Source: Periplaneta americana
Lineage: Eukaryota; Arthropoda; Insecta; Blattodea; Blattidae
Direction of reading: 5' to 3'
DNA: 64,000 nucleotides
Assembly (NCBI RefSeq): GCF_040183065.1
Contig: NC_091119.1
Coordinates: forward strand, 206,295,298 to 206,359,297
Position numbers and translations under genes: made by a program. This document shows, one piece after another, positions 9 through 62,692 of the stretch. Every line of letters starts with the position of its first letter. Position 1 is the first letter of the stretch. The notes under the pieces are model-generated. The model saw only the letters and a program-made list of their open reading frames with translations, made no database searches and was not told where the DNA came from.

Positions 9-3000
9 TCATGCTGTGGTACCTACAATACCGATATTCTGAGGAAAGGGGAAAAAGCTTCCAACCAATGTAGGAACACTGTTCACAGAGGTAAAGAACT
101 TTCCAGGTGAAAAACGGTAATTAAATGTAGTTTACAAACTAGTACTGACTCTTCAAAGTGTAATGTGACTTTCAATTTCAGATGTAAACAACTTCAAAGG
201 TCCTGAAAAAATCAAGAAAATTATGCCATTTTTTGTAAGTATGTCACTTCCTCCTACTCACGTCACAGTTCACTCTATTGGCCTGTTTTTCGAAAGACAA
301 GATAGTGACTGATTAGTTAGCACTCCTTAGAGTGACTAGTTCCGTAATTTTACTGCCTAGTTACTCGAAAGATTTTTTGGCTCACTAATGAATTAACTGA
401 AAAATGATTAATTAGGGAATCTAGACATTAACACAATCTTATTCATAAATAACAAGTTGCATAAGATCTGTTAGTACATGTCAATCGCTTTAAAATATGT
501 CTTTTGCGCAATAAGTCATAAGCTATAGGTTAACAACTGGCAAAACTCCGTTGTAGGAGGTTACTAAACCTTACCGCTGTGCTAAAGGCGGAGTCGGAGT
601 CGGACTTTACCCTCCATTAAACTGAACCATTGACAAATCATCTGACGCATCAGTACGCGCTACTATTGGCTGACAATTACGAAGGGGGAGGTGATTAGTA
701 TATGTGTCACTCTTTAAGATTGACGCATGCGCAGACTAACGGAGTTTTCTAAGTTGTTCCCCTATACCTTTTATCTTTGTTTACTCGTATCTTGTAAATA
801 AATCAACTCGATTTCTACACACTATTGGTCCAACAATTTCGTATACAATAGCGAATACGTCTTCATCTAAAGACAAATTTATTTTGAAGACTTAAGAAAC
901 TTATTACTATACTGCAATAATCACCATGGTAACGTCGACCTGGTTGGCGAGTTGGTATAGCGCTGGCCCTCTATGCCCAAGGTTGCGGGTTCGATTCCGG
1001 GCCAGGTCGATGGCATGTAAGTGTGCTTAAATGCGACAGGCTCATGTCAGTAGATTTACTGGCATGTAAAAGAACTCCTGCGGGACAAAATTCCGGTACA
1101 TCCGGCGACGCTGATATAACCTCTGCAGTTTCGAGCGTCGTTAAATAAAACATAACATTTAAACATTGTAACTGTCTGTAGTAACGTAAATTTTTCCAAC
1201 ACATCTAGTAGGCTTTGGTTTTTCAAAGAGATCAGCTGGAAATTTAAGGTCAATGCATTCTTTCGATATTTCTGCCCATGTAAGAAGAGTTAAGAGTTAC
1301 TGATTTCGTATCCCCCTCCAGCAATGAGAGTTTAATTTAAGGAATCATTAGGCCTACTGTACCTGTTTATAATAATTATAGACTCATTATTTTTAATAAA
1401 ACCTCAAGTATTGTTAGAGGAACTGGGCATAAACGCCAAGCAACAATTTCTCTACAAATTTATTACAGGTTACGTTTGAAACTTTACGTTGTAATGAAAG
1501 CTTGCATCTATGAAAACAAAATCCTGTTACTTTTCTTGAATCCTCCAAGCTTACTTCAGTGTCAGCGTGATTACTGAGTGGTTGGGCAGAGATAGTGCCT
1601 ATTTCCTATATCCGTCTACAGGGTGTTTAAAATATAATGGTCAATGTTTTAAAAATTAAAAGTATAAATGAACACAAGAAAAAAGTTCCATACAGATTGT
1701 TGCTTGTTTGAGTTTGTAATTTTCATCTGCAAATTACTGACCATCACTTTTGTAACACTCAGTTCAGCCTATGGGGAAATGGTTCTTTTGAAGAATGACA
1801 AACTCTGTCTTGGAATATTTTTGTGGACCTCATAATGGGAAAAAAATAACTGATAACGTAAGCATTATTAATTAAAGTCCAGATTACCAAGAACTATTGA
1901 TCAAACGATACGAAACGTGAAGACAACATGAGTATGGAGCGAACACTTCCATGTACCGCGTAACAAGGAGCTACAAAAAATATAGGTAGTTTCACGAAAT
2001 AACACCGCATTATTGCAGATTTTATTTGTTTCACAACAATTCTACTCTATTTCATGTCGCGAATTATATTAATGTTTACAGTGTGAAATGAGAGATTAAA
2101 AAAAGGTTTATTTAAATGATATCATTTATTAAAGAGTAAACACTAGACTATGACTTAAGTTTCCATTAAGGTTTACACTGAGAGTTATGTTTTTTGACAC
2201 ATCAAGATTTTGATTTAAAAAATCAATTAAAGGAATATAATTTAAAAGCCTTTTATCAGGTAAATATAGCTTTATTCCATGATTCGTTTATCCGAGGAAT
2301 TAATCTCACTGATTTCTTAGTTTAGTTACAATATATTAAATAAATGCGCATCTCATACGTAGCCTATGAACGTCCACAATTCATGTTCCTCACAATTACT
2401 CCTCTCTTTATTTCAGTGTGAACAGTTGTGTATGTGCAGGAGACTTCACATGGTATGTCTGTCACTATAATTTCACTAGTAGTAGTAATAATTATTGAGA
2501 AATTCCTTTGCAGAACGAAAATTACACTTGTTCAGATCAAATTTCTGCACATTTAAAGGACAAAACTAAAATTCTTTCAATCATTTATTATCATAATACA
2601 CTGCTCAAATGATACTCGGGAGAAAATTAAACGCAGAATAAATATGGGAAATGACTGATATTATTCGGTTGAGAAGCTTTTATCATCCAGTCTGATGTCA
2701 AAAAATCTTAAAGTTAGAATTTATAAAACAGTTATATTACCGGTTATTCTTTATGGTTGTGAAACTTGGACTCTCACTTTGAGAGACGAACATAGGTTAA
2801 GGGTATTTGAGAATAAGGTGCTTAGGAAAATATTTGGGGCTAAGAGGGATGAAGTTACAGGAGAATGGAGAAAGTTACACAACGCAGAATTGCACGAATT
2901 GTATTCTTCACCTGACATAATTAGGAACTTTAAATCCAGACGTTTGAGATGGGCAGGGCATGCAGTACGTATGGGCGAATCCAGAAATGCATATAGAGTG

Positions 3001-6000
3001 TTAGTTGGGCGGCCGGAGGGAAAAATACCTTTAGGGAGGCCGAGACGTAGGTGGGAAGATAATATTAAAAAGGATTTGAGGGAGGTGGGATATGATGATA
3101 GAGAATGGATTAATCTTGCTCAGGATAGGGAACAATGGCGAGCTTATGTGAGGGCGGCAATGAACCTCCGGGTTCCTTAAAAGCCAGTAAGTAAGTAAGT
3201 AAGTAATACACTGCTCTCTTAAATTCACTGAGCACATTGGGAATTAAATCAATGGCTTTCCCAAAACACGCAATTTTCGAAAAGAAAGCAAAAACGAGCT
3301 AAATTGTATTGTACTTTTCTTTGAAATATCTGAAAGAATTGGAATTAATGACATTACTTAGGTTCAACCTATATGCCGCGCATCGTATTTAAGGCCATGA
3401 GCATCGAGAGTGAAGTTATAGACAGTTATGATCTATAACAGAGGTCATCAAAACATTGCACTCTCGGGCTAGCGTCTCTTAACCGCAGGGCTCTTACAGC
3501 ACCAGCGTGCATTCGTGGCTGCTGGCGGGCATACTTCCGAGGGTGCATGTCCATGCACTGGTTACCCCTAACCCATTTCAGCGGGTGCTGACGATCACTG
3601 ATCTATAATAACAAAGATAAAACGTATGGGCGAATCCAGAAATGCATATAGTTAGTTGAAAGGCCGGAGGGAAAAAGACCTTTGGGTAGGCCGAGACGTA
3701 GGTGGGAAGATAATATAAAAATTCATTTGAGGGAGGTGGGATATGATGGTAAGGACTGGATTAATCCTGCTCAGGACAGGAACCGATGGAGGGCTTATGT
3801 GTGGTCGGCAATGAACCTCCGGGTTCCTTAAAAGCCATTTTTAAGTTGTAAATACAAAGTAGAAATAGAAAAAACGATTTTGTGCGAGATCGTGCGTATT
3901 TGCTTGTTTTCCGCACAAAACCAATAAGCGGTAAGTGTGAAATACCACATTCAGTATTCCCAACTTAACACACAACAATTTCCCTCTTTATACTGCTTAA
4001 GAGACATATTCATTTTATTGCTTTTGGCTTTTAACATATTATTTTTAGAGACGTTTAACAGAGTAATAATTATAAATTGGAAACTTACCACTGCAATTTC
4101 ACCTAAATTGCACTGTTAATTATTGTTTTTAAATGTTTGCAAAAATTAAGTAAACTCTATTACTCCAGTAAAGTTATTGCATTCGTGATGCAAGTAACAT
4201 TAAGGAAGCCGTGAAAAAATCAACACGATTCCAGATGCCGATGTTATTACTGCAATATGTTATATAAATAATATTGTTAAAATATTGAAATGAAAAATAA
4301 ATCATTACATAACCTTACCGTTTGTTTTAGGGGAGAGTCGGGTAGTATCGGACATCGGGTAGTATCGGACAGTGAGTTTCTTTCATCTACCACCATATGG
4401 TAGTACCTGAATGACATGGTTACGTTTCTCTATCCGACATCACAGAAACGTAACCATGTCAATCAGGTACTATCATCGTGTGGTAGATGAAAGAAACTCA
4501 CTGTCCGATATTACCCGATGTCCGATACTACCCGACTCTCCCCTAAGTTCGCATTTATAGACTGGGGGGGGAAGACAGACGTATATCACGGCCTGCCGGA
4601 GTATAGTAAACACAGAAAAAATTTTATGGCAACAATGTTGAAGAGAGATATTTTTGTTTTCCAAAATTGCCGTCATTGAACAGAAACCAAGATGGAGATT
4701 TCATCGCAACTAATTAGAAATTCCTCTTTCAGGTATATAATAATAATCTTCGCACAAAATAATGTACGATACACGAGCGGTATGTTTGTTTTCAACTACG
4801 TTTCGCTTTTTCAATCTTTTCCTCGAACATGAAAACATCAACATACAGCTCTTGTAACGCATATTACTATTAAAATAAAATATAAACTACAATAACATTA
4901 ACAATTTACACTACCGTACTACAAAATACTTAAGTCTATAGAAGAGTTGAGAAATTCCTTAAAGAGGCATCATAAAAGGGATTTTCTATTAGCAAACTTT
5001 GCATGATGATTTTAAATTTCTTAAAATGTACAGCGTCTGCTTGGTGTGGCAATTTATTGAACCTAGCAACTACAACCTAGCTAAAACAATTTCTTGATTT
5101 GCTCAGTTCAACGTTTTATTTAGGCCTTCATTCACAGTTTTCTATCCAAAGGGCAGGTCTTTCACTGCAAACCAAGTATTCTCCTATTTTCCCATTTTCT
5201 GCCTTCCTCTTAGTCTTCGCATATATGATCCTTTCTTCTTCTTCTTTGGTTCTACAGCCGGGTTCCAGCCTTGACCGCCCCAACGATGCTTTTCCATGCC
5301 CTTCGATCTAACACCTGCTGCTATTACATCCTTCTCCACTTCATCCAGCCATCTTAGCTGAGGTCTCCCTACTTTTCTGGTGCGAAAAAGTATAGTGAGA
5401 GCCAATTTCTTGCAAGGATCATTTTCATCCTTCCTACAGAATGGCCCAGCCACCTGACTCTCCTAGCTTTAATTTCTCTGCAAACATCTAGTTCTTTAAA
5501 AAGTTGGTATAATTCATAGTTATATCTTTTCCTCCAACTGCCCTCATCATTTGCTGGTCCGTATTTCGTCCTCAGAACCTTTCTCTTGAAGCAGTAATTA
5601 GGAGAGGGAGAGACCGATTTAATAGCGAAGTGATATCTCCATATTTTTGTGACATGTAATCGCGGGGATGTTCTGGCGACTTGGTTAGAATTAGTTTCAC
5701 ACTCAGATGGTTCACATCCTCTCGTCACCTGTCAGCATCGGACAGATTTATGGCCACCTTGGACAGGGTTTTGCATAGACACTCTTTCAAGCGTAAAAGC
5801 CAAAGTTGGACTGGACCCGTGGGAAAGTTATTGCAAAGCTCGGATTTTCCAAGAACGGGGGTTCTCTAAAGATCTACTAACTAATTTGATGTTGTGGGAA
5901 GTCCAAAAGTTTAAATTTAGAGATGACGTATTTCGCGCCCAATAAGAAGAGATCGTGGTTCAACTTATGAGGTCACTTTGGACCAATAGTGAATAGATTT

Positions 6001-9000
6001 TAGGCCGGTTAAGTGACGCAGTTTTTAACCAATAGGATAGTTAGTTTTAGCGTAGGATAGGTTTTTATAAATAAGGGTGACGGGGAGTGGAGATCATCAC
6101 AACTTCTTATCGTGTCGGCGGCCCTACATACAGGGCACAATAACTACCTCGTTTCGCGTCGACAGGACAACTACTTCTTTTCGTGTCGACATATTTTTTT
6201 GGGTGTCGGCGGCCCAACCTAATAGTCTTTCTTCCGGCGAAGACTCGATAGATAGAACTTTGTCATCGGCGAGACTACTCGTCAACGTTTAGGAGCTTCG
6301 ATTATAGTGTACTGGACAGAGTATTGAATTTATAGTATCGGATAGAGCTTATTCAGAGCCGCCATAGAGTCGATACAGAAGTGCGACCAACGATTGAATT
6401 ATAAGTCAGCCGGAAATACATACTCTAGGGTTTACCAAGTGAATACGACAATAAACTTATAGTGTTGGAGTTTACACTGCCTTTTATATAAGTAGCCGGC
6501 TTGGTAATATTCCTGACATCATCCTACACCACAACCGTACCTCGGCTACCCTGAGTGAATCTCACGCAACACCGAGACGCACCCACCCTCACTCTCAAAT
6601 ATACTCAGCCTACAATTGTCGGCACTGCCAACTGCCCAGGTTTCAGATCCATAAAGCAAGACTGGTCTTATTAATGTTTTATATAATTTGCACTTAGTGT
6701 TGCGGCTGATATCATGTGATCTTAACTGTTTTTGGAGTCCATAATAGCACCTGTTTGCTGTAAGGAGTCTATGTTGGATTTCTGCACTCACATTATTATC
6801 TGAAGTGACTAGTGAACCTTGGTACTTAAATTCGGTGACTTTTTCCAACTTGTATCCTCCTACTTCAGGATACTCCATTTCTGAGGGATTTATTGATACC
6901 TCCATATACTTGGTTTTACCCTCATTTACTTTGAGGCCCATTTGCTGTGCTGTAGCATCTAGGTTGATGAATACATCTTTGATGGCTCTTTCTGATCTCC
7001 CAACAATGTCAATATCATCAGCATAAGCCAATATTTGCACCGATTTGTGGAATATTGTACCCCTCCTTTCAATTCCTGAGCTTCGGATAACCTTTTCCAA
7101 AGTAATATTGAACAACAGACATGCAAGTGCGTCACCTTGTCTAAGGCCCTTCTGTGTATAGAAAGGTTCTGAAAGTCACATATATAATCCATATTACCTC
7201 AATATCGTCTATTATCTGATATCTTCTTCCGCCCCAAACTTTTCTCCCGTTCACCATTCCTTCCACTACATTCTGAGCAGACAGTTTCTTCTCAGTGGCC
7301 CAGCAAATTAATTTGTTATACAGTTTAACACTTATGACCAAAGCTCGGAACTTGGGGACTTGTGTGTCGTGTGCATGAGTAAGGTTACAGGTACAACGTA
7401 CACACAGCTCACCCTGCAAGTGCTCAGAGACAGTCGTGTGTACTAAGAAAGTGGTCACATCGAATGACAGGAAGACGGACGAGGAAACTGTGTCGTGTCG
7501 AAGGCAATGACATTCAGATAATTAATTAGAGGTAAACGGTCTGTCTGAAAATAAGAAAATACGTATTATTCGAATGGGTATTGTATACGTTTGAAAATAT
7601 ATTTCTTAAAATTTAGATACAGAATTTCGTGGAGGAATTCTGAGGAGATACATTATTTTCTTCGAATGGAGAGTTTGTATTTTGTAACTTGTGTCAAACA
7701 CAAACTAGAGATTGGAAACGGGCATTCATTGAAATACATTGCAGTCCCTTAAATCGGTGGAAAATTTGTCCATAGCCATGGATCAAATCGTAGTGGAACC
7801 TTCCCTAGTAGTGACATAGAAATTGAAAACTATTTTCGAGACAAACTTAGGATACTTATCTTTCTCAGATACGAGATCAGCTAGTAACTACTGAAAATCG
7901 AACAGGAAACAGTGACAGTGAAAACATTCAATACTTTATTTCGGCATAAGACTTTATAATACAATTACATACCATTTTCCAAATTTGAATTTTTTTTAAA
8001 ATTGAAGCTTTTAAAAAATAAATTTGTAAAATTATCCACGATATAATATAATATTAACAAATGTATTTTTTTTACCTTTTATTTCTGTCTACTATATTCT
8101 TGTTTTTATTGAATATCACTGGCTTCTGTCGGATTGTCAATTTATATTAAATGTGTATTTTTCTCTCTTTCTCTTTTTTCTTTATTCTTGCTCTTGTGTT
8201 ATATTTAATGGTTTGAATTAAGTTACTTACTGTATTTAGTAAAGTATCCTTGTAAATTTTATGTTATATTATTGACTAAGACCACACCGTACACGAGCCT
8301 GACTCTTACGGTAGTGGCTAGACACATTTTTGTGTTATAAATGTAATTTGTATTCAGTAGGTAGCTAGTTAAAATAAATAAAATAAAAAAGTTAATTTTG
8401 CTCCCGTCACATCATGTGACGTGGAAATAAGTTTCTTTCGTTTTAAATCATGTTTAACTAACAGACGAAGAAGGTATGGGTTAGAAAAATATTCGAATGT
8501 ATGTAGTCATACACTGTAATAAAATATACAGAGCAGAACTGTAAATTTGATATATTTTGCATGTTTATTTATATATATATGCTATAAAATTACGTGTTTC
8601 AACCTACCATAATATTATCATTATGTTGTTCTAGCCAGGAACCACTTTTATAGCAGACCTTACAATACCTCTGTGCTGGAAGCGGGAGTTTGTTGACATT
8701 GAAGTCCGATCGCTTAGCCACGTTCAAAGACACAAGTCCCCAAGTTCCGAGCTTTGCTTATAACACATGTAATGTAGTGAGAAAATTAATCGAATGTATG
8801 AGTATTCAATAAACAGTATTAACCTACAAACTGTTGAGACAGAGGAGAAAAGACAAATTTGCATTGAAGGAACAAGAAGTCAAATGATTCAGTATACCTG
8901 ATTACTAACATAAACATTGTTACATTTTCAGTGCAACTCGACAGGATATCTAAAGAAGGATGAATTTGTAAAGTATGCCAAAGATTTGTATGTAGAACAA

Positions 9001-12000
9001 GAAGTGCGCACAACCTTGCTTCGGAACGTGGACAGATGCTACAGCATTAGTAATCACGGAGCAAATCGTAAGTTTACGGATGAAAATATTGTTCGCAGTA
9101 GAAGCACTTTCCTACTATACTTTCCTAATTAAATAAATGTGGAACAATAATCTTACTGAGAGTACTATTTGCGGGAGTGGCAGTTGTAATTGCCGCAGAA
9201 ATGATCTCTTGCTTGTGAAGGAGAGAATAAGACTAATCAACAACAAAACTGTAAAGAAGAAATATACACTATCAAATACACAGCACAGAAAATTCATACA
9301 ACCCCAACATAATAGACATCATAAAAAGTATAAAATACAAATAAATAAACGCAACACAAACACAAGAACACAATAAATACATGACACTAACAAACGAAAA
9401 TAAAAACACATGGTCTACAAGATTGCATCATCTTTCAAGAAACTAAAATACAACACTGCATACTGAACACTCCTCAACACAAGACAAGACACACAAATGC
9501 AACCAAACAGGTGTACACAATAGTCGTAGTGACTTCTAACTACATTAGACAGACTGTAAGATCTTTTCAAACACGTCATAAAGAACACATTACAGCCACA
9601 GCCAAACCACACAACAGTTTAATCTACGCAGAACGCACCACAAACCCCAAACCCATCTACAGCAACATAGACACATATATGAAAAAACTACACATTCAAC
9701 AAAAAAAAACAGAAACTCGATATTCTACGTAGAATAATTGGAATTTTACAGACACTCAAAAACACATCCAAAATTTGTCATGGTTCCATGTTATTAACAC
9801 TCTCTTCTGCAGTCTTATCCTGAGGACTCATTTACAAAAATTTTCCCTGTGAATAACGTCATACGCCACTATTAAAACGTTTGAGTGCAATGCCTCAATA
9901 TGGCATTGAAGTTGCTTTGCATCCTGATGTAACCCAAAACGAAATCAATTCGGTTTAAGATGACTTCATGAACAGGTATGATGTAAGTTATAGTATAATA
10001 ACTTCATGAACAGGTATGATATAATAGTATAATAACTTCATGAATAGGTATGATATAAGTAATAGTATAATAACTTCATGAACAGGTATGATATAAGTAA
10101 TAGTATAATAACTTCATGAACAGGTATGATATAAGTAATAGTATAAAAACTTCATGAACAGGTATGATGTAAATGAGAGCATAATAACTTCATGAACAGG
10201 TATGATGTAAGTAATAATATAATAACTTCATGAACAGGTATGATATAAGTAATAGTATAACAACTTCATGAACAGGTATGATATAAGTGACAGTATAATA
10301 ACTTCATGAACAGGTATGATATAAGTAATAGTATAACAACTTCATGAACAGGTATGATATAAGTAATAATATAACAACTTCATGAACAGGTATGATATAA
10401 GTGACAGTATAACAACTTCATGAACAGGTATGATATAAGTAATAGTATAACAACTTCATGAACAGGTATGATATAAGTGACAGTATAATAACTTCATGAA
10501 CAGGTAGGGTATAAGTGATAGTATAATAACTTCATGAACAGGTATGGTATAAGTGATAATATAACTTCATGAACAGGTATGATATAAATAAGTTATTAAT
10601 ATAATAACTTCATGAACAGGTATGGTATAAGTGATAGTATAACTTCATGAACAGGTATGATATAAGTATTAGTATAATAATTTCTTGAACAGGTATGATA
10701 TAAGTAATAGTATAATAACTTCACGAACAGGTATGATATAAGTAATAGTATAATAACTTCATGAACACGTATGATGTTAAGTGATAGTATAATAACTTCA
10801 TGAACAGGTATCATATAAGTATTAGTATAATAACTTCATGAAGAGGTATGATATAAATAATAGTATAATAACTTCATGAACAGGTATGATATAAGTAATA
10901 GTATAATAACTTCATGAACAGGTATGATGTAAGTGATAGTATAATAACTTCATGAACAGGTATGGTATAAGTAATAGTATAATAACTTCATGAACAGATA
11001 GGGTATAAGTGATAGTATAATTTCATGAACAGGTATGGTATAAGTGTTGTATAATAACTTCATGAACAGGTATGAAATAAACAAGTTATTAATATAATAA
11101 CTTCATGAACAGGTATGGTATAAGTGATAGTATAACTTCATGAACAGGTATGATATAAGTATTAGTATAATAACTTCATGAACAGTTATGGTATAAGTGA
11201 TAGTATAATAACTTCATGAACAGGTATGATATAAGTAATAGTATAATAACTTCATGAACAGGTATGATATAAGCGATAGTATAACAATTTCATGAACAGG
11301 TATGACATAAGTGATTGTTTTCCAGTTAGTATATTAATTTTTTTGAATATGTAACTGTGACAATAACATAATTCAACCTTCAATGATACTGAAATCGATT
11401 GAGATTTTAATTCCAAAGTAACAAGTAGTAACAAGACTTGATGACAAGACATTCTTCGGTACTCACGCCCTTCTGAATTCATTTCAGTGTATAAATGAAT
11501 AGGAATTGCTGCAATGCAATTTCTCCATTACGGTCATCAATTTATGAGATGTCGGTATGAAGCGTTGGGAAGTGCATATTTTTAAGACTTTAGTAACTAA
11601 AAGTTATCTAAAATTGATTAATTTGTGTTGTGCTTATGTAGTCAAAATCATTTACAGTACATAATTAATCTATTGTTACACTTTCTGAAGCAGTTACATG
11701 AGCACGAGAGAACTAAATTTCATTTCATTTTACTTTATTTTAAGAATGGATGACGCAGGAACCGGATACAAAAATTTGCAACGGTGCAGCGGGAATGTCC
11801 GAGATATGTTTCAGCAAAGCAATGATGAAGGTAAGTAAGTACTAATTAGCTAAGTCGACATTCTGTTTTCCTGTCCCATTCATTTCATGACTAAAATAAC
11901 TCTTTCTCTTTTCCCACGTCTAGCTACTTGTCATTATTTTCTTAAGTCAACACGTTCTTAATTTTGTCGATGATTAAATTCCCTACGATTTACGACAGGG

Positions 12001-38372: not shown

Positions 38373-38433
<61 letters not shown>

Positions 38434-38544: not shown

Positions 38545-38580
<36 letters not shown>

Positions 38581-45396: not shown

Positions 45397-46188
45397 TCCA
45401 CAAACGATTAGGGAAAACACGGGAATTTTACTGGAAGCAAGTAAAGAGATAGGTTTGGGAGTAAATCCCGAAAAGACAAAGTATATGATTATGTCTCGTG
45501 ACGGGAATATCGTACGAAATGGAAATATAAAAATTGGAAATTTATCTTTTGAAGAGGTGGAGAAGTTCAAACATCTTGAAGCAACAGTAACAAATATAAA
45601 TGACACTCGGGAAGAAATTAAACACAGAATAAATATGGGAAATGCCTGTTATTATTCGGTTGAGAAGCTTTCATCATCCAGTCTGCTGTCAAAAAATCTG
45701 AAAGTTAGAATTTATAAAACAGTTTATATTACCGGTTGTTCTGTATGGTTGTGAAACTTGGACTCTCACTTTGAGAGAGGAACATAGGTTAAGGGTGTTT
45801 GAGAATAAGGTTCTTAGGAAAATATTTGGGGCTAAAAGGGATGAAGTTACAGGAGAATAGAGAAAGTTACACAACACAGAACTGCACGCATTGTATTCTT
45901 CACCTGACATAATTAGGAACATTAAATCCAGACGTTTGAGATGGACAGGGCATGTAGCACGTATAGGCGAATCCAGAAATGCATATAGAGTGTTAGTTGG
46001 GAGGCTGGAGGGAAAAAGACCTTTAGGGAGACCGAGACGTAGATGGGAGGATAATATTAAAATGGATTTGAAGGAGGTGGGATGTGATGATGGAGACTGG
46101 ATTAATCTTGCTCGGGATAGGGACCAATGGCGGGCTTATGTGAGGGCGGCAATGAACCTCCGGGTTCCTTAAAAGCCAGTAAGGTAGT
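45397..46188 (+). mobile_element. RTE-type LINE 3' end, copy 7, with 13-bp TSD
   Basis: Reading from [20 protein letters not shown] to MNLRVP, broken by a +1 shift near 45725 and a TAG near 45859. The duplication atttatcttacaa is at 45384-45396 and 46189-46201. The GTAA tail is almost lost. Confidence 0.9.
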
Positions 46189-48522: not shown

Positions 48523-49421
48523 TAATACTTACTTACTTACAAATGGCCTTTAAGGAACCCGGAGGTTCATTGCCGCCCTCACATAAGCCCGCCATTGGTC
48601 CCTACCCTGAGCAAGATTAAACCAGTCCCTACCATCATAACCCACCTCCCTCAAATCCATTTTAATATTATCCTCCCATCTACGTCTCGGCCTCCCTAAA
48701 GGTCTTTTTCCCTCTGGTCTCCCAACTAACACTCTATATGCATTTCTGGATTCGCCCATACGTACTACATGCCCTGCCCATCTCAAACGTCTGGATTTAA
48801 TGTTCCTAATTATGTTAGGTGAAGAATGCAATGCGTGCAGTTCTGTGTTATGTAACTTTCTCCATTCTCCTGTAACTTCATCCCTCTTAGCCCCAAATAT
48901 TTTCCTTAGCACCTTATTCTCAGACACCCTTAACCTATGTTCCTCTCTCAAAGTGAGAGTCCAAGTTTCACAACCATACAGAACAACCGGTAATATAACT
49001 GTTTTATAAATTCTAACTTTCAGATTTTTGGACAGCAGACTGGATGATAAGAGCTTCTCAACCGAATAATAACAGGCATTTCCCATATTTATTCTGCGTT
49101 TAATTTTCTCCTGAGTGTCATTTATATTTGTTATTGTTGCTCCAAGATATTTGAATTTTTCCACCTCTTCGAAGGATAAACCTCCAATTTTTATATTTCC
49201 ATTTTGTACATTATTTTGGTCACGAGACATAATCATATAATTACTTTGTCTGTTCGGGATTTACTTCGAAACCTATCCCTTTACTTGCTTCCACTAAAAT
49301 TCCCGTGTTTTCCCTAATCGTTTGTGGATTTTCTCCTAACATATTCACGTCATCCACATAGACAAGAAGCTGATGTAACCCGTTCAATTCCAAACCCTGT
49401 CTATTATCATGGACTTTAAAT
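48523..49421 (-). mobile_element. RTE-type LINE 3' end, copy 8
   Basis: Minus strand, 228 open codons from MIMSRDQNNV to MNLRVP. The upstream stretch (49240-49420) continues the same family with a break. Likely duplication tatgaaaaa at 48514-48522 and 49422-49430. Confidence 0.9.
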
Positions 49422-49977: not shown

Positions 49978-52900
49978 ATGGGACCAATAACTTCATTTTT
50001 CTGTATAGCTACTCTCTTTATATTCGCAAGATGCGTGGAAGTTTCAGATCGAGGTGAGCGTGAGTACTCTAGATCACAAAGTACTAAGGAGAAGAAGAAG
50101 TTACGGAAAAGGGGAGAAAAAATATAATTTTACCTGTGATGTAAATAATTATTCAGTTAACACAGAACTGAAAGCTTAAAGAGTAAAATTTTAGGGCTTA
50201 AAACTATCAAGAGTTTGCACGATCGGCATAACGCTAGGTTACGGAAATGGGTAAAAATAAAATGATAAGATTTTTATGCTCGACCATGCCGAAATGTAGT
50301 AATTATACACCTGGTAGTAGCCCTTTATGGACTTCATCAAAGTACACCTATTCATTAAAGTTCAATGTTCCACCAATCAGAAAATACCATTGTAGCAATA
50401 TGAAAGCGCAAGTATCGATTATTCTCGGATATGCAATCGAAAGACAACTAGTTCTGTTACTATAATAATTAGGGTTAATTGTAAATAATATTCAAATAAA
50501 TTCAATTTGTCATCTGTTTTTCATGTCTAATTCAATTTCAAGGTTATATCAAGATTAATGTTTATTTTACTCTCAAGATTATATCAAGGTCAATGTCGAC
50601 ATTTGTTTCTCGGAAAAAATCAATACTTTCCCGTCTGCGCACATCTCACAATTTACGAGGTATTGCACAAGGTCAGTTCCGCTCCTCAGTCAGATAAGAA
50701 TAACATGAATACTTATGAATAATTTCAAGTTAGAAATAAGATCGAGCATAAAAAGTCGTATGAAACTTGACTATAATGGTAATTAAGACGCTCGTATGAA
50801 AATTATTATACTACCACTATAGGCTCGTTGCATAATGTACTATTCTGTGAAAATGTCGCTTTCCTTAAAGGAGTCATATACCGGTGGCATAAAAATATTA
50901 CATCATTTTATAATACAGAGTTTTATTGAAATAAAATCAGGAATATAAGTTCAACACAAATAATTGCATTGTGTATTCATTTACAATTCCAGATCCCGAA
51001 TTCACGGATATAGTTGACGCAGAATTAAATACTCCCATGATTTCAAGTCGATCACCTTTATTTTATTACAAGCCTGAAATGTATTTTAGCCCTTTATTGA
51101 GCCGTTCGCTGCGTTCTGAAGACGGTACACGTAAGAATCTGAAGGTAAAGGTAACGTGTTGATCCAGACAATAACAAAGAAAATCTTCCTCATAGCAAAA
51201 GGACGTCTTTTGTCACTAAAAGTTGTCATGGTAACGTTACGATATTTGTCTTTAAATGTAGGATTATTACTTCTTTTGTTTTCTGTAAGAAAGAACAGTA
51301 GCAGTAAAGCCATCGTCTCACTTCTTGTAGCTTCTTTTGCACTCATTTTTCTACAATATGGAACACATCCACTTACAGTTTTTGTTTTCAGCCACATTCA
51401 TTTGTTTCTGTTTGAGTTTGAGTAATAGATCTTTCTCTTCGTATCGGTATGTTACGTTAGACCTCTTTCTTCTTCTTCCATCAATGTTCATAGTTCTTTA
51501 TGGTAATTCATTAGCTTTATCATTCAACTCATATTCATTTTGTTTTTATTGTTGCTCATATGGAGATAATCAATTGTCCCAAGACTGCCTCGTTTCGAGC
51601 AGTATCAAACAGATGGTACTCCTTTCAATATGAAAATTTTATGGATCAAAGTGAATTGAAACTAAATCTACGTTTGAGAAAACTAAGATAATAAAAGGCG
51701 TGGTGTACACTGGCGTTCAAAGACACCTGAACCCTACTAATCGATAGTGATCGATTGTTTGATCGTGTAAGTGTGGTTTTTTTAGTTATTATTAATGCTA
51801 ATTATGAGAATAATTTATACTTAATCTACGTCATCATTTTCCCAAACATTTTTTTACCTATCCCTATATTAGTGCCATCTATTGAGAACTATAGTCGCGA
51901 CGCTGTTATTCCCGGCGTGACTCCTCCTCTTTGCTTACGTCTTAGGAAGTGAAGGCTCTATAAGGTCTAGGTAGGTAGTATCGTTCGCCATTTTTGTTCT
52001 TTCGTTGCCGAGCTACCAGACGAGGGATCTATTTGCCACCCCGTTAAACATTATCATGTCGTAGCTCCTATGATAATAAATCAGACGCACTGTAATTCAG
52101 CAAATAATTGAGCGGCAAATAACGTCTTCGTGTGCTTTCTGCGAACGCAAACGAAAGAGCCAAAATGGCGGGCGATTATATTAAGTATTTATCGAGCCTT
52201 AGGAAATGCTTAACGTCTTCATCAGCGAATCACAAGACGCACACGTTTAAATGTAGCCGACCTGCAACGTGATTGGCTGCCGGAAATTAGAGCGACGGGA
52301 CTACAAAGTGTCTCATGGCTCTCTGTATGCCGTCATATGGCTAGTCGATGAGCCTAGAGAATTCAATCTTCCTACACTTCCGCAGAGGCGTATAACCAAT
52401 ATGTCTGAGAAGTTGCCTAGCAAGTACGACGTTCATTCTGAAATTACTTACCGATATGTACGGTAACGCCGGTAGTGGCAGGAATGTGAACTGTTTGGAA
52501 AGATGTACTGAGGTAGGTTTTTTTCTTACTGTCGGGATATGGGGAGAGAGTTAAGATGATTACTTACGTATTTGTTGACATTAATTTCGACGGTCAACAT
52601 GGACACGGAGCATTTGATTTGTGTTGTGGAATGTTACCGTACGCAACTGATAACACTCTACGTACGACTTGGCCGAGCAAAACACAGTTCGAAAGAGGTT
52701 ATGGTAGCACACAGACCGTACAGACCGCCATCTGTTGCTACGACGTTCAAGTTATACCGTACACGTTCTCAAGTTCAGATTGAACGCCTTGATTAATAAG
52801 CAACTTCTCTGACTTAGAAAACTGAAGCTCGCTTCAAATCGCTGACTCACAACAGTGACGTCATGACACACTTTGAAATGAACACCCAGTATAGTGAAAC

Positions 52901-55900
52901 TATATCAAAGTTTGTCCTTTTGTTATATCTTTGGTTCTGACATCTCGTGGTTGGAAAGTTCGCTTACACGATCAGAAAAATTCTAGGTCAGATTTCTTTG
53001 AACGCCAGTGTACACAGAGTTCATTGTTATCCAAGATAATGCTATTAACCTAGTTTTAGGAAACTAAGTTAACAAGGAATTTACCGGTGTTGATGAAAAC
53101 GGGGCTTAATAATATTAGAACGATTTATTTGAATATATTCAAGCAGTGAATTTTGTTTGTGCACAGTGTTGCCGGCGACCTGAACCTCAGTACACCGAGA
53201 AAGATGTGCGAATATTCAACAGATGCGTAGAAGAGACAAAACCAAAGGGTAAGAAACCCAGCAGTTGCCAACAACATACCTAAAACTGTCTGGCTACTAC
53301 AGAATCAAATACCTTATATGATTTATAACCAAAACACAAAGGAGTATTAGATATACCATAAGTCGAAATATAAGACATGAATTATATAGAACCCATAAAC
53401 CTAGAATATAAATAAAACTTAATAGATATCAATTTATTACCAATATCAATCCTAGAAATTTCATATCCTTAACGTGAATTTATTTTTTTTTATTATATTC
53501 CGATATGTTTACAATCCAATTAGGCTGTATCATTTTTTTAACCCTTTAAGGACAACTATCCTCATATTGGGTTTTTTCTCTCTCTTCCTCTTACTTAATT
53601 AAGAAATAGATAAAATACGATATGATGGAATAGTGCCAGTGGAGGATGGAGTGGAATCTGAAGACGAGAGAGTGGACGACTGGCTAATCAACATTTGCTT
53701 ACTTAAATTAATTAGTTAACGCAATTTAATTACTTATATGGAAGAGTAAATCGTTACATTTCAACAGCAACATTAAGAATAGTAACTAGTGATGAAAAAG
53801 TACATATGAAAATACGTATTTGTATCGGAGCTGTATATCTTAATGGAACTAAGTAATTGCATGTTTCACGTTTAATTATTATGATTGACGCATTGTTGTT
53901 CGTGGATATATGCATATTTTTTTTATGTTCGTCAATATTTCGACATTAAGATTGGCCTGTATTTTCTGTATATTTTCAATATTTTATAGCAAAAACCGTT
54001 TTCTAGCATCCTGGACTTTGATAAAATATGTTTTAACGATTTACTTTACTAAGATGCTTTCCTGCTGATCCAGAGTTGCGTTCGATTCCCGCTTGGGCTG
54101 ATTACCTGGTTGGGTTATTACCTGGTAAGGCGAATGTTAGGTAATATATGGTGAATCCTCGGCCACATCTATCGAAATACCATCTCGCTGTCACCAAACC
54201 CATCGACGCTAAATAACCAGGTAGTTGACACAGCGTCGTTAAATAATCAACCAAAAATAAAATTATTTACTTCAGACATGGGTGAGATCATTACCTTTTT
54301 TTTTAAAACAACAGTAAGTAGTATTTTGTTAGAGTCTCTCTAGTGTCGAAGGTTTAACCGCGAAATCTTGTCGTCGGCCGACCGGGAGCAGACGCTCTGC
54401 GACCCGTCAACTCCGTGACGCACTCGCATTTCACAGATAATCCGCTCACCTAGTACAATGCTGGTGGCAACTAATGCAAACCAAGCTTCAAGAGTAGAAA
54501 TGAAATAGCTGGAAATTAGTTTCATAATATGTTCTAATATGATTCATTTTCAGCTTCTATGACTTACACTCCGGGCGACGCAGACAAAGAAGTCAAGAAG
54601 CGATATGTCGTGAGTACAAACAATGCTACCTGTATTTCTTAAACGACTATCTCAAGGAAAGTGAAGTTAACTTCGTGGTATCACCCTTAATGGCAACAGG
54701 ACTGCAAGTTACACTTTAAAATTCGTAACACGTTTAGGCCATCTGTATTTCAGGTACATGAAAAATCGATTTTCATGACTTGCTCAATACAAACTTTCCG
54801 TTCTACAAAGGAATTGTTCAATGTTACGTTTGTTCGGATCAAATTTCTGCACATTCAAACGACAAAACTAAAATTCTTTCAATCATTTATTACCATAATA
54901 GACTGCTCTCTTAAATTGACTGAGCATATTGGGAACTAAGTCAATGGCTTTCCCGAACCACGCTATGGAATGTTTCATAAAAAAATTATCTCGAAAAGAA
55001 AGCAAAACCGAGCAAAATTGTATTAACTATTTTCTTTGAAATATCTCAAAGAATAAACCCCTGAAATTAATAGCATTAACTACGGTTCATCTGTATATAC
55101 CCAAAATAACAGTGGCTTCGTCTGCATTCTTTTTCAGTGCCTCCTGCATTGCTGTGCTAAACATCTCGGCATGGTAAGACAACGACTATTTCAGACTACA
55201 ATTAAAATAGGATCCATGTAGAGTAATATCACGATGTGGTTTAACTCGGAGCTTATGTATAGTACCATTATTACGATTACACTACATCATAATTGGCCAC
55301 GTGTTGGCCTTTTGTCGGAAAGGAGAGTTATTGCGTAACAACAGGCATCATAGTCCGTCGAGCTGTCGCCTGTCTTCTTCGAAAGAAGGGTTTGGAAGTT
55401 CATGAAGAGGTCCAGGTCTGAAGACGAATCTCACAGAAGAGCGGATTTTAGTTATTCAGTTATTTAGTTATTTAGTTATTTAGTTACTTAGTTATTCAGT
55501 TATTCAGTTAGTTAGTTTATGTATTATTTATTTATTTATTCTGGTGTACTGTAGTTAAAGCCATCAGGCCATAATAGCATTGAACAGACAACTAATGGCA
55601 ATTATCATAGATCCAACTATACGCCTGGAGAGGGATCTAAACCAAGCTCATCAGGTTGATCATGAAAAGTGGACCATTTATGAACGTTATATTCCCTACC
55701 TTACTGCCCAGTATAACATCCCTCTCTTCAATTGGTCAGTGACAGGTTTACTTTTTGGTGCTTGGAGTTCTTTACCAAAATTGACATATAATTTTTCAAA
55801 CAATTATCAATATCATCTTCTGAAATTGAAAAAATCATCTCTCAAATTCTTAATGATTCCTTGCAATTTCTTTTATACTACTCAGAAAGTCTTAATTAAG

Positions 55901-57782: not shown

Positions 57783-58886
57783 ATATATACATACTAGGTT
57801 CAAAAAGTTCCTGGAATTTGCTAGCATCATAGAAACAACGTACCTTAAACACTATTCTACAACATTCCCTTCAAAATAGTTGCCTTCCGCAACAACACAC
57901 TTTTGCCAACGCGTGTAGAGTTCCTGGAAGCAGGCCTGGAAGCCATTTTGTGAAACCCGTCTTAGTGCTCTCGTCGCGTTTGCGATAACCTCTTCAGCAT
58001 TGAATCTCCGTCCTTTCAGATGACTTTTCAGACGGGGAAACAGAAAGTAATCAGGTGGTGAGAGATCAGGAGAGTATGCTGGGTGATCCAAAGCAGTTAT
58101 GTTGTGCCTGGCAAGAAAATTCTTTACAATAATTGCGCGATGAGCAGGTGCATTGTCACGCATAAGGAACCAGTTGTTTTCTACCCACTTTTCTGGACGT
58201 TTCCTTCTCACTGCGTCCCAGAGGCGACGGAGGGTTTCTACGTACAATTCTTTCGTTACAGTACGACCTTCTGGAATGAACTCATGGTGCATGAGACCCT
58301 GAGAGTCGAAGAAAACTTCCAACATAACTTTGCTTTAAGTGTGCTTAAATGCGACAGGCTCATGTCAGTAGATTTACTGGCATGAAAAGAACTCCTGCGG
58401 GACAAAATTCCGGCACATCCGGCGATGCTGATATAACCTCTGCAGTTGCGAGCGTCGTTAAATAAAACATAACATTTAAAATAACTTTGCCTTTGGAAGT
58501 GTCCCTAGGAAATTTTTGCTTCCGAGGAGATGTTTTCGATTTCCACTCAGATGACTGTCGTTTAGGGACTGGGTCGTACAAGTAGCACCAGTTTCATTTT
58601 GTTTAAGAAATCACCATCTTCATCAGCCATACTGATCATGTCCCCAGCAAAACACAGAACTTGATGTTTGTACTTTGCTCTGTGGACATAATTACAAAAT
58701 GCGACGAACAAACGAAACACTATGATAAACAATTGCCTACAACTCAAAACCAATAATTGCCATTATCAACAAACTTTAAGGAAATGACATCATGAATGTT
58801 ACCAACAAAACAAATGTATAATATCCCTTGTTATATATTAATACGAAAAATGGTAGTAAAATTCCGGGAACTTTTTGAACCTAGTA

Positions 58887-58969
<83 letters not shown>

Positions 58970-61530
58970 ACAAGGAAACGGACATGTTCAAAACCAAACT
59001 TGTAGTGCAATGAATGTTCAAAAAATGTTTCAGACAAACATAACGAAATGGAATTTCTGTAGAATGAAACAATTTGTGTTTATACTTCATATAATGAGAA
59101 ATGATACACAAATACAAAATGAATCATTGAAAGAAATGAGATATCAGACAAGTTGCATCTCAATCACTATTGTAAATTGAAGCCCGGAGCATAAGGTATA
59201 ATTATATTAAACAAACTAACTACACTTTTAGAACTCGACAGCCAGGTAGCTGTACTTCCACTGTATATTGTATTACGTGCTGTTAACAAATGTTCCAGAT
59301 CGATGCGGGCGGCTACTTAATAGAAGATAAACTGGCACAGTTCATCAAGAACTCCAGTGGCTCCTCCGTGTTCTATAACGAAAATAAGGACATTCTGGAG
59401 AAGTGCGGCAGTTTTGCGAACAAATACAGCAAAGGTGAGGGGTTCGCGAAGTATGCCGATCTGGTCACAATTATTGTCCTCCCTTCAGCTCGTCTTTTTC
59501 ACTGACCGGCCTCTCCATCTGAGTTGATAATTCAAAATAAAAAACGTTATTGCCTGGTCTCACGTACACAATCCTCAGCAGAGGTCAACGATCATCCAAT
59601 CAGTATGAAGGTAACGCGTGGGTGATATGATGATTCCCCTTAGTTGTTATGAAACCCTGATCACATTCCCTCAAGAGTACCACCTTTTTTCCCCGTAAAG
59701 ACAGTAAAAACTGGAAACTACTTCATTTTCAGATCACGTCAAACTCATACAGTACTACGAACGGAAATGTAACGCTGCCATTGTTGCGCTCTACATGTGT
59801 GTCAACGCTTTTGCAGAGTTGGTAAGTGTTGTGTTTGGCTGCCTTGAACTTAGGAAGTACGTTTCTTCTTATCTTTTTGCAAAGTAAAAATAATATAACA
59901 AAAATACATAGCAATAACTTTGAAACCAATGAATATCTGTTGGAGTTTAGTTATATCACGGATTATAGACTGCTACAGAGATCATAATATTAACTCTTTT
60001 TGTAACATAAATACAGCCACAATATTACACAACAGATTTCACTAACAATGTGAAAAACCTGACTCAGGACTGTACAATTTTAAACAACACTGCAAATACA
60101 TCGCTGACATATAAATTTAAATTACTTTCAATACATCGATTCCATCATATAGTAATTAATTTGTGAAGGTCCTCCTTAATTAAATATCATAATCGCCAAT
60201 ACATCCGTTACAACTCCCAATTAACTTCAAATTTCAATTTAAACTTCCCAGTATTTAATACTCCATAGCTGCATAGTTTTACACCATGTCGTGTGAGACA
60301 TCTCCATACGGACACCCCCAAAATACGGATACCCCTCATATACGGACAGATGTTTATGTTCCAACTGAAATGATATAGAAATAATGATAAATTTAACTCT
60401 CGTTTACGGACACTCTCAGACACGGACACGGACAGCTGTTTCACAGTCTCAAAGCTTGCTTTACCTCCTGACTGTGGACAGAACTTGGATTTGAAGACCT
60501 AATATGTTACAAAAATGGAAAATTTAGTACAGAAATTCCTTAACATGAAAGAAGACAATAAGGGCCTCATAGCATACCACTAGCCCAGCCGGCTACCCCT
60601 TGTTAGCTGGAAGCGGGTGGATAAAGAAAATCATAAAATTTAACCTGTCTGATGGGTCAAGGTTTCCGCGATCGTGAAATTGTATTCGACACATGATAGG
60701 GTTAGTAGGATTATTCTCTTCACTTCAATCAGTTGTCCTGTTTTGAAAGACATGGCACCTGAACGTAAAGGTTAAGTTGAAAACTGTAAATTACAGTACT
60801 GCATAACTGTAGACCTAGAATAAAACTGTATGGCACAGCACTGTATTTTCCTTTTTCGATCTTATCTACTGTAATTAAAGTTGCAAAGAATTTACTGTAG
60901 TACAGTATACTGTATTTAGAATTAAACTACAGTAATACACTTCATTTAAAGCGTGAAGGGATATAATAATGCATATTATAAATTCACAGTTAGAGTGGGG
61001 AGCCTCCCTCCCAATAAAGGACACCTCCCAGATGCGGACAGATTGTTACGTCCCTTCGATGTCCGAAAATGAGAGGTTTTACTATACATGCAAAACACTC
61101 AACTCTTTGGAACTTCGCGAAGGGAAAGGAAACCTGTATATTTGATCCTTAACAACGTCACTCTAGGACTAGTAACCAGTCTAACACTTACCCTTCACCT
61201 TCGCTGATCACGATGATGACCTCCATACGTGGCTCAGAAGTATTTGAAGTTTCTGCAACAAACAAACAATTCTGTACTACACTCAGAATTCATACAGATG
61301 TTGTTGCAGTGCCTAATTGCTTATAATATTGTGTTCTTTCATATTATCCAATTCTCACATAATTTACTAAATCTGCCGGTTTTTTTTTTTTTTTTACAGA
61401 ACTGTTCTGACCAAAGACAAATTAAAAGTAAGTATGATTATTTTACAGAGTTCTTATACAACAGAGTATCATTTCAATTTTCCGAGCATTACTATAAGCC
61501 TACACTTAGCACTAATTGCAATATCTATTG

Positions 61531-61590: not shown

Positions 61591-62467
61591 GGAAAGTCCA
61601 GGATAACAGAGAGGGTTTGGAATTGAATAGGTTACATCAGCTGCTTGTCTATGCAGATGACATGAATATGTTAGGAGAAAATCCACAAACGATTAGGGAA
61701 AACACGGAAATTTTACTGGAAGCAAGTAAAGAGATAGGTTTGGAAGTAAATCCCGAAAAGACAAAGTATATGATTATGTCTCATGACGAGAATATTGTAC
61801 GAAATGGAAATATAAAAATTGGAAATTTATCTTTTAAAGAGGTGGACAAGTTCAAATATCTTGGAGCAACAGTAACAAATATAAATGATACTCGGGAGGA
61901 AATTAAACATAGAATAAATATGTGAAATGCCTGTTATTATTCGGTTGAGAAGCTTTTATCATCCAGTCTGCTGTCAAAAAATATGAAAGTTAGAATTTAT
62001 AAAACAGTTATATTACCGGTTGTTCTTTATGGTTGTGAAACTTGGACTCTCACTTTGAGAGAGGAACATAGGTTAAGCGTGTTCGAGAATAAGGTGCTTA
62101 GGAAAATATTTGGGGCTAAGAGGGATGAAGTTACAGGGGAATGGAGAAAGTTACACAACACAGAACTGCACGCATTGTATTCTTCACCTGACATAATTAT
62201 GAACATTAAATCCAGACGTTTGAGATGGGCAGGGCATGTAGCACGTATGGGCGAATCCAGAAATGCATATAGAGTGTTAGTTGGGAGGGCGGAGGGAAAA
62301 AGACCTTTAGGGAGGCCGAGACGTAGATGGGAAGATAATATTAAAATGGATTTGAGGGAGGTGGGATATGATGACAGAGAATGGATTAATCTTGCTCAGG
62401 ATAGGGACCAATGGCGGGCTTATGTGAGGGCGGCAATGAACCTCCGGGTTCCTTAAAAGCCAGTAAG

Positions 62468-62516: not shown

Positions 62517-62692
62517 CATCATCATCATTATAAACCAATAACATAATTGTGGTTACTTGTGTATGTGGTTATGTCTGATTTCTTACGTCACAGATAGATA
62601 AATTAGTTAAATCTCCTTTTCTTGCAGGTGCAGAATGCGACAAATATAGACACAACACGCGAATGACGTTAGAGGCACTCAAACTGTTATAA
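49978..62692 (+). CDS. OBP-3: Plus-C odorant-binding protein, complete, nine exons, 239 aa
   Basis: Secreted ligand carrier of the Plus-C OBP class. Exons: 49978-50053, 50993-51144, 53167-53248, 54554-54609, 55138-55173, 59299-59434, 59733-59821, 61400-61427, 62628-62692 (TAA); 720 nt in frame. The N-terminus [19 protein letters not shown] is a hydrophobic signal peptide. Cysteines: C77, C78, C96, C123-X3-C127 (C128 extra), C170 after 42 residues, C192-X9-C202-X8-C211, C222. The proline that normally follows the C211 position is Ser212. Exon lengths 76, 56, 36 and 28 nt equal those in OBP-2, and all phases agree. Exon 2 could be read to a donor at 51131 (gtaaga), but only the donor at 51145 (gtaaag) keeps phase 0 into exon 3. 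AATAAA occurs at 62691 (overlapping the stop) and 62783; the latter is the likelier poly(A) signal. Confidence 0.9.
50054..50992. other. OBP-3 intron 1
   Basis: Gtgagc to ttccag, 939 bp. It has short open frames but no recognised element. Confidence 0.6.
51706..53013. mobile_element. TIR element, 1.3 kb, with nested MITE
   Basis: Ends tacactggcgttcaaaga and its inverse tctttgaacgccagtgta. The first TA may be the target duplication. No transposase is seen. Confidence 0.65.
51979..52180. mobile_element. MITE, about 200 bp
   Basis: The left end atcgttcgccatttttgttc ... tttcgttgc pairs with the right gcaaacgaaagagccaaaat ... ggcgat. Nested in the larger TIR element. TA dinucleotides lie at both edges. 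Confidence 0.6.
53249..54553. other. OBP-3 intron 3
   Basis: Contains a SINE (54048-54256). Nothing else is recognised. Confidence 0.6.
54048..54256 (+). mobile_element. SINE family B, forward copy
   Basis: Head with gttgcgttcgattcccgc (B box) and gcttgggctgattacctggt, body ending gacacagcgtcgttaaataa. Inverse orientation of 46565-46818. Confidence 0.7.
54610..55137. other. OBP-3 intron 4 with dispersed repeat
   Basis: Positions 54830-55095 match the repeat around RTE copy 1 (2525-3375) and show its state without the insertion. Gtgagt to ttcag. Confidence 0.65.
55591..55930 (+). pseudogene. R4-like LINE endonuclease relic
   Basis: Reading [20 protein letters not shown], then [18 protein letters not shown] and [14 protein letters not shown], aligning with the endonuclease and C-terminus of 37530-38219. 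Both ends are lost. Confidence 0.65.
55963..56872 (+). repeat. Dispersed repeat with (CAGA)n
   Basis: Begins tactagccgtacccgtgcgc and ends aaatttcggctacag ... attagtatagatt, with cggttcagccattatcgcg and (CAGA)n at 56712-56740. The style is common in arthropod genomes; the class is not assigned. Confidence 0.6.
57240..57748 (+). pseudogene. R2/R4 (Dong-like) LINE 3' end, second copy
   Basis: Reading [20 protein letters not shown], then [20 protein letters not shown] and [16 protein letters not shown], with the UTR end actgagtccttctgggctac. It is followed by (TTA)n at 57749-57780, as in the first copy. Confidence 0.75.
57794..58884 (-). mobile_element. Mariner element, inactive, interrupted by a SINE
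   Basis: Inverted ends ctaggttcaaaaagttc (left) and gaactttttgaacctag (right), with TA on both sides. Minus-strand transposase 57852-58325 reads [29 protein letters not shown] and [20 protein letters not shown], the last two catalytic acid regions of mariner transposases. It resumes upstream of the SINE ([20 protein letters not shown]) and is shifted beyond. The N-terminal domain is mostly missing. Confidence 0.88.
58334..58480 (+). mobile_element. SINE family 1, truncated, inside mariner
   Basis: Matches the body of 935-1172 without the tRNA head. The duplication ataactttgc is at 58324-58333 and 58481-58490. Confidence 0.82.
58889..58963. repeat. (TA)n microsatellite
   Basis: About 37 TA units directly after the mariner target site. 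Confidence 0.93.
59822..61399. other. OBP-3 intron 7
   Basis: Contains a pogo/Tigger-like non-autonomous element (60270-61075). A poly(T) run (61380-61395) forms the polypyrimidine tract before exon 8. The rest is unassigned. Confidence 0.6.
60270..61075. mobile_element. Pogo/Tigger-like MITE
   Basis: The right end reads, inverted, agtaaaacctctcattttcg followed by gacatcgaagggacg. The left part has atacggacacccccaaaata, with paired cggacag motifs on both sides. This is the look of pogo/Tigger ends. The left end is worn. Confidence 0.5.
61428..62627. other. OBP-3 intron 8
   Basis: Filled by RTE copy 9 between (ATT)n runs at 61530-61590 and 62473-62515. Confidence 0.7.
61591..62472 (+). mobile_element. 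RTE-type LINE 3' end, copy 9, with YADD box
   Basis: The longest copy: it includes the catalytic [20 protein letters not shown], then [17 protein letters not shown], a TGA near 61923, and the usual C-terminus to MNLRVP. The tail GTAAGTA merges with (TTA)n, and the 5' end also abuts (ATT)n. Confidence 0.92.

Follow-up and report, generated by a model that had tools for sequence, protein, structure and literature searches.

The stretch of DNA analyzed in this study (hereafter the window) comprises 64,000 nucleotides (nt) of contig NC_091119.1 of Periplaneta americana. It contains three predicted odorant-binding protein (OBP) genes, OBP-1, OBP-2 and OBP-3, which lie head to tail on the + strand and span positions 9-62692. 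A previous reading of the window (hereafter the initial annotation) had placed three tandem genes of the Plus-C subfamily of OBPs over this span. The span proved correct, and the three genes and their nine-exon plan were recovered at the same coordinates, with the exon lengths and intron phases proposed there. OBP-2 and OBP-3 consist of nine exons each, and OBP-1 is represented in the window by exons 3-9. The proposal that OBP-1 follows the same plan holds for the lengths and phases of exons 3-9, except that its exon 4 is 53 nt, not 56 nt, long.

In OBP-1, exons 3-9 are located at 9-90 (82 nt, with a pair of adjacent cysteines, the CC pair, near the start), 182-234 (53 nt), 2417-2452 (36 nt, C2-x3-C3), 8932-9067 (136 nt), 11745-11830 (86 nt, C4a-x9-C5), 13451-13478 (28 nt, C6-P) and 20180-20241 (62 nt including the stop codon, C6a). 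OBP-2 begins with exon 1 at 26793-26868 (76 nt), which encodes a hydrophobic leader and is preceded by a TATA-like box at 26708; this is the least certain exon class in both OBP-2 and OBP-3. Exon 2 of OBP-2 at 30331-30470 (140 nt) is a linker with R-V-F-R and is less well supported. The remaining exons of OBP-2 are found at 32291-32357 (67 nt), 34053-34108 (56 nt), 36973-37008 (36 nt), 39578-39710 (133 nt, followed by a GC donor), 39865-39950 (86 nt), 41914-41941 (28 nt, C6-P) and 42577-42638 (62 nt including the stop codon). OBP-3 shows the same arrangement, with a hydrophobic leader in exon 1 at 49978-50053 (76 nt) and a linker with R-S-L-R, again with weaker support, in exon 2 at 50993-51144 (152 nt). 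Exons 3-9 of OBP-3 follow at 53167-53248 (82 nt), 54554-54609 (56 nt), 55138-55173 (36 nt), 59299-59434 (136 nt), 59733-59821 (89 nt), 61400-61427 (28 nt, C6 followed by Ser, not Pro) and 62628-62692 (65 nt including the stop codon).

The intron phases are 1,0,1,0,0,1,0,1 in OBP-2 and OBP-3, and OBP-1 matches the last six. The reading frames close in all three models and every exon is open, the openness being imposed by the search. The 22 introns of the window genes are 91-6701 nt long, and all but intron 6 of OBP-2, which is GC-AG, are GT-AG (21 introns); the acceptor AG was a requirement of the search and not an independent result. An AATAAA signal lies downstream of every stop codon (at 42762 in OBP-2 and 62783 in OBP-3). 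The predicted proteins are 227 amino acids (aa) in OBP-2 and 239 aa in OBP-3, and the part of OBP-1 inside the window encodes 160 aa. The exons were found as in-phase AG...GT segments, with stretches of retroelements and simple repeats masked. Before masking, fragments of retroelements dominated the output both of the search for paralogous exons and of the comparison of all open segments with one another. The search detected exon 6 of OBP-2 only after GC donors were admitted. The donor of the intron that follows it (39711-39864) is the sole GC donor among the 80 introns modelled in the array described below. The predicted models are exact ones for OBP genes in which exons of 28 and 36 nt and introns of up to 11 kb make calling difficult.

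The chains of exons 3-9 were evaluated by searching each window gene with the other two as query. When exon lengths were left free (15-210 nt) and the phases were fixed, the models of exons 3-9 were recovered exactly in all three genes, with scores of 67.0 (OBP-1), 161.5 (OBP-2) and 144.5 (OBP-3). The best of 20 first-order random sequences per gene scored -24.0, -40.0 and -29.5, respectively. Since the phases were imposed on real and random sequences alike, these scores test the genes, and the identity of the phases is a property of the best chain. With narrower exon lengths and 60 random sequences each, OBP-1 scored 67.0 against -44.0 and OBP-3 scored 144.5 against -52.0. Under narrow lengths no chain of OBP-2 was recovered in one run, and a second run gave exons 6-9 correctly and exons 3-5 wrongly (93.5 against at most -56.0 in 60 random sequences). 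OBP-2 was missed or misplaced in these runs because its 67-nt exon 3 lies outside the allowed range. In the first test, with a single query gene and GT donors only, two of the four window chains contained wrong exons. With OBP-3 as query, this test misplaced two exons in each of the other genes, namely exons 4 and 9 of OBP-1 and exons 5 and 6 of OBP-2, and these placements were rejected.

The initial annotation had proposed extending the sequence both ways to count the members of the cluster. A search of 240 kb of flanking DNA for chains of exons 3-9 extended the row to an array of 11 predicted genes with chains of these exons, together with the end of a twelfth gene. Every one of them lies on the + strand. 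The flanking genes are referred to as U1-U4 (upstream) and D4-D8 (downstream). With OBP-1 to OBP-3 alone as query, U2 (113.0), U1 (87.0) and a partial U3 (42.7) were found upstream, where the best reverse-strand chain scored -11.0; D5 (208.0), D4 (188.3) and D7 (38.3) were found downstream, with -17.3 for the best reverse-strand chain. In a second round four flank genes were added to the query, and scores were averaged over the three best queries. Since U1 and D4 were themselves in the query set, their scores are inflated in this round, and only those of the non-query genes count: the full U3 (233.7), D7 (98.3) and D6 (91.7), with at most 18.0 on the reverse strand. A third round added D8 at 151.0 and the last two exons of U4. 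Exons 6 and 7 of the U4 chain were rejected as noise; only exons 8 and 9 look real.

The successive exon 6 starts are 17-48 kb apart across the array. All 11 genes have introns 4, 5, 7 and 8 in identical columns of their alignment. The column of intron 6 is shared by 10 of the 11 (D8 being shifted by a gap), and intron 3 lies inside a gapped linker, where its column varies. The phases agree across the 11 genes, as the search required. Two exons have a constant length in every gene, exon 5 with 36 nt and exon 8 with 28 nt, although 27-48 and 22-40 nt had been allowed for the eight flank genes. Exons 3, 6, 7 and 9 range over 67-109, 118-136, 80-89 and 50-80 nt, respectively. Exon 4 is poor in D4 (44 nt, score -9.0) and in D8 (1.0). 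The claim that exon structure was held fixed therefore stands for the number, position and phase of the introns and for exons 5 and 8; the other exons vary across the array by whole codons.

The 5' ends of the genes are less clear. The lengths of exons 1 and 2 in OBP-2 and OBP-3 were adopted from the initial annotation. Exon 1 of both genes encodes a leader that is hydrophobic by hydropathy alone and is a candidate secretion signal. Leader and linker exons of the same phases were chosen in D4 (76 and 140 nt), U1 (82 and 134 nt), D6 and D7 (85 and 119 nt in both). Some support comes from these neighbours: D4 has the same two lengths as OBP-2, and D6 and D7 share theirs. The six full-length models of the array encode 222-239 aa. 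In U3 only a linker exon of 128 nt was modelled. The strict rule yielded no leader exon in U3, D5 and D8, and the one weak candidate of U2 was not used. An alternative phase-0 start of OBP-2, with exon 1 at 25186-25266 and exon 2 at 30255-30470, is possible; the 76-nt phase-1 start is preferred, being common to OBP-3 and D4. The 5000 bases directly upstream of the window consist of N, as do positions -64999 to -60000 relative to its start, so that the model of OBP-1 is incomplete at exons 1-2 and its exon 2 was not found. A possible leader exon was noted at -5095 to -5035 on the same scale.

The assignment to the Plus-C subfamily was then considered on the basis of the cysteines. The six core cysteines, with C2-X3-C3 and C3-X42-C4, are present in OBP-1, OBP-2 and OBP-3. 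All three genes also have the extra cysteines C4a and C6a, with spacings of 9, 8 and 10 for C4a-C5, C5-C6 and C6-C6a. The full spacing is C1-X21..26-C2-X3-C3-X42-C4-X19..21-C4a-X9-C5-X8-C6-(P)-X9-C6a. In the Plus-C formula described for two plant bug OBPs (PMC5623005) and in PMC8151400, the corresponding part is C4a-X9-C5-X8-C6 with C6-X10-C6a. As the initial annotation had stated, the spacing in the window agrees with the published pattern, lying within the plant bug formula as that source gives it (PMC5623005). A CC pair located 17 residues ahead of C1 in all three window genes is invariant in the 11 genes. HparOBP14, as described in PMC8151400, likewise has two conserved cysteines before C1; its C4-C4a gap is shorter (12). 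From exon 3 to exon 9 OBP-1 contains 12 cysteines, and OBP-2 and OBP-3 contain 11 each from the CC pair on. The Plus-C OBPs of Drosophila are described with 12 cysteines (PMC2258175), and other published descriptions, as given in the sources consulted, ask for eight. The proline directly after C6 is present in OBP-1 and OBP-2 and in nine of the 11 array members.

The genes were also compared with domain and structure databases. OBP-3 matches PF01395 above the cut-off (28.6 bits against 22, E 1.7e-6). The second Pfam match of OBP-1 is OBP47_like (PF22651), with an E value of 0.017 and 15.3 bits against a cut-off of 27; OBP-2 and OBP-3 gave no match to PF22651 in the Pfam search. At E values up to 1, PF01395 was matched by seven of the 11 array members and OBP47_like by four, with a best E value of 1e-4. 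An NCBIfam search returned nothing useful. A profile built from 11 rows matched mainly pheromone- and odorant-binding proteins in the PDB. Among the 36 sequences listed, only 4ij7 (9e-7 over positions 14-141 of 152) and 3pm2 (2e-4 over 37-141) align to position 141, through the C6-P/C6a end. The chains 4ij7 and 4kyn, labelled OBP-8, are presumably the Plus-C protein AgamOBP48 of Anopheles gambiae, and 3pm2 is taken by us to be AgamOBP47, also Plus-C. The two structures are distant from the array at the level of profiles, and two of the 11 array members lack the C6-P proline. The placement of OBP-1 and OBP-2 in Plus-C is supported by cysteine spacing and proline, although both stay below the Pfam cut-offs. 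OBP-3 passes the cut-off of the general OBP family; it lacks the proline and is therefore placed in Plus-C by descent, through its clade, and not by the motif.

The arrangement of the array bears on its origin. Adjacent genes share a mean identity of 29.9%, and the mean of all 55 pairs is 21.9% (p 0.0001 by permutation). In a tree of the 11 genes, rooted at the midpoint only, the clades appear in gene order: U1-U3 with OBP-1 (99/99), then OBP-2, OBP-3, D4 and D5 (89/93), and then D6-D8 (71/78, weak). Since the clades follow gene order, the window straddles the border between two groups. With 11 genes on the same strand, matching intron positions and phases in exons 3-9 and neighbours that are more alike than in random orderings, the proposed tandem duplication of whole genes is well supported. 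The intron positions were kept at sequence identities between array members of down to 14-46%.

Taken together, these results are best explained by a Plus-C OBP array longer than the window, which would have arisen by whole-gene tandem duplication, diverged over a long time and encoded secreted carriers; we assign this joint reading, made from sequence, a probability of roughly 0.93. Each gene would start with a leader exon, followed by a variable linker exon and then by the seven short exons that encode the cysteine-locked OBP domain. The shared intron positions and the gene order mirrored in the tree suggest that the array grew from one ancestor by duplication of whole genes. The subsequent divergence of the copies may have taken a long time, with purifying selection on the cysteine scaffold as the main force, as judged from one measurable pair only. 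Going by the family, the product is most likely secreted and would be a helical, disulfide-braced protein that carries small hydrophobic molecules in the sensillum lymph or other body fluids.

Several observations weigh against this explanation. OBP-2 remains below the PF01395 cut-off of 22 with 19.3 bits (20.5 with exons 3-9 alone), and OBP-1 had no PF01395 match in the Pfam search, where its best match was the Giardia surface protein VSP (0.0034), below the cut-off. A search of the whole genome for PF01395 was empty; the control genomes were empty too, and the result is hence uninformative. Searches of solved structures with single sequences (OBP-2 and OBP-3) were weak, the best matches being a dynein light chain (0.57) and an OBP (0.14). 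The matches of the 11-row profile include proteins other than OBPs from 0.0041 on, the best of which is an outer envelope protein. The proline after C6 is absent from OBP-3, which has Ser, and from D8. In addition, the proposed exon 1-2 pair of OBP-2 and OBP-3 ranks just 30th of 3552 pairs by similarity, and exon 2 alone ranks 142nd (local alignment) or 50th (global alignment) of 1696.

The poor ranks of exons 1-2 would also be expected if splice-like sites had been assembled by chance and some or all of the genes were unreal or dead. It also fits this view that a rule-based search produced the exons of 28 and 36 nt and that this search required open frames. However, random sequences never scored above zero in the chain tests with either narrow or free lengths, eight genes of the flanks repeat the plan, and the Pfam and PDB profile matches lead to OBPs. 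We therefore regard a chance assembly as highly improbable. Another explanation accepts the genes and takes the copies to be young and rapidly evolving, by positive selection after recent duplication. This would account for the low identity, which is 30.2% between OBP-2 and OBP-3 and 21-28% between OBP-1 and the other two. The proportion of synonymous differences (pS), however, is 0.867 for OBP-1/OBP-2 and 0.888 for OBP-2/OBP-3, at or beyond saturation. The nonsynonymous (dN) and synonymous (dS) distances are 0.43 and 1.19 for D6/D7, the best measurable pair, and 0.62 and 1.72 for U1/U2. Low-copy DNA matches between gene bodies are also few: two for OBP-2/OBP-3 (one of them at exon 8), one for OBP-1/OBP-2 and none for OBP-2/D4. 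Given the saturation of silent sites, the low identity may simply reflect old duplications. For the termite Zootermopsis nevadensis, five of the six related genes (OBP23-28) lie in an array, and the Blattella germanica paper, in its account of these genes, reads this as an old expansion (PMC6175461). A recent origin thus appears unlikely, and the "fast sequence change" of the initial annotation is not borne out by the saturated pS of both window pairs tested or by the values of D6/D7.

A further question, which concerns function within the preferred reading of an old Plus-C array, is whether these proteins still act in smell. Proteins with the OBP fold may have left smell and serve as general carriers or in gustation, reproduction or immunity. 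PameOBP3, a Plus-C OBP of P. americana with a mature form of 215 aa, is described as present in most tissues examined and as having no high affinity for the tested compounds (PMC5232348), which number 87 as retold in the B. germanica paper (PMC6175461). According to the latter, the newly added OBPs of B. germanica are supported mostly by head RNA and less by antennal RNA (PMC6175461). PameOBP3 belongs to the same species and subfamily as the array and is likened to it by description, not by sequence. Given its broad tissue distribution and lack of high affinity for the tested compounds, a role outside smell has about the same probability as a role in smell.

Rows of OBP genes of this kind are already known from cockroaches and termites, and the array of the window is a further instance. 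Of the 109 OBPs reported in B. germanica, 61 form a single array spanning about 1.6 Mb, to which most members of a 71-gene clade belong; the whole clade is called Plus-C (PMC6175461). An OBP gene of this species typically has a signal exon followed by 7-9 short coding exons (PMC6175461). The subfamily, the tandem arrangement and the short coding exons are the same as in the present array. The spacing is about 26 kb per gene in B. germanica (1.6 Mb/61), compared with the 17-48 kb between exon 6 starts here. The first intron is said to be in phase 0 in most B. germanica OBP genes (PMC6175461), whereas it was modelled in phase 1 in six genes of our array. This phase came from the initial annotation for OBP-2 and OBP-3 and from the search filter for D4, U1, D6 and D7, and a difference from B. 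germanica is hence not established. The Z. nevadensis row comprises few genes by comparison with the array described here.

The linker exons share one further feature. An R-x-x-R motif is present in all seven modelled exon 2 pieces, the first R lying 12-20 residues before the CC pair. The motifs are RSRR (U3), RIRR (U1), RVFR (OBP-2), RSLR (OBP-3), RVKR (D4), RHVR (D6) and RQAR (D7). The pieces lie in the window at 30331-30470 and 50993-51144 and at flank loci between -102044 and 132625 from the window start. The background frequency of such a motif near the end is 8%, or 64 of the 794 candidates resembling exon 2 that were collected from both strands, the true ones included. Only OBP-2 and OBP-3, whose exon 2 was chosen before the motif was noticed, provide a clean test; the other pieces were picked partly by the likeness of their tails. 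Exon 2 of D8 (157099-157208) was selected for its R-x-x-R and is excluded from the seven. U2 and D5 yielded no exon-2 candidate that carries R-x-x-R, which counts against a pro-segment unless the exons were missed. Furin recognizes the pattern R-x-[K/R]-R, and this stricter form fits three of the seven motifs. It is conceivable, if rather doubtful, that the Plus-C OBPs of the array are pro-proteins and that a pro-segment encoded by exon 2 is cut at R-x-x-R by a furin-like convertase, which would activate or release the carrier. If so, the leader, a disposable pro-segment and the cysteine scaffold would each reside on their own exons, which would give a reason for the exon plan, and the design of expression and binding assays for mature Plus-C OBPs would change. 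An earlier statement of an OBP pro-segment with furin-type cleavage was not found in the literature searched.

The cysteines are rearranged in the upstream part of the array. In U1-U3, C5 is missing from exon 7 and a cysteine is present midway along exon 6. C4 is additionally missing in U2, and all four members of the branch of U1-U3 and OBP-1 have a cysteine at the start of exon 6. This rearrangement suggests that the disulfides have been rewired in this branch.

Repeats and mobile elements occupy parts of the introns and spacers of the window. A tandem repeat with a unit of 38 bases and 35.7 copies is present at 9963-11312 within intron 6 of OBP-1. An imperfect TAGTAG repeat of about 1.1 kb at 38432-39523 in intron 5 of OBP-2 ends 54 bases short of exon 6. 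Scans of the window with Rfam and for tRNA genes were empty. Seven copies of the coding end of one element, recognized by their similar open frames, lie in introns and spacers at 2659-3180, 13513-14016, 32392-33177, 36403-36816, 45356-46172, 48550-49260 and 61926-62456; the copy at 32392 had no Pfam match at E 0.01. Fragments of reverse transcriptase (PF00078) and a fragment of a DDE transposase (PF01359, PF13358) are found at 6549-7175, 27928-28314, 30793-31158 and 57855-58334.

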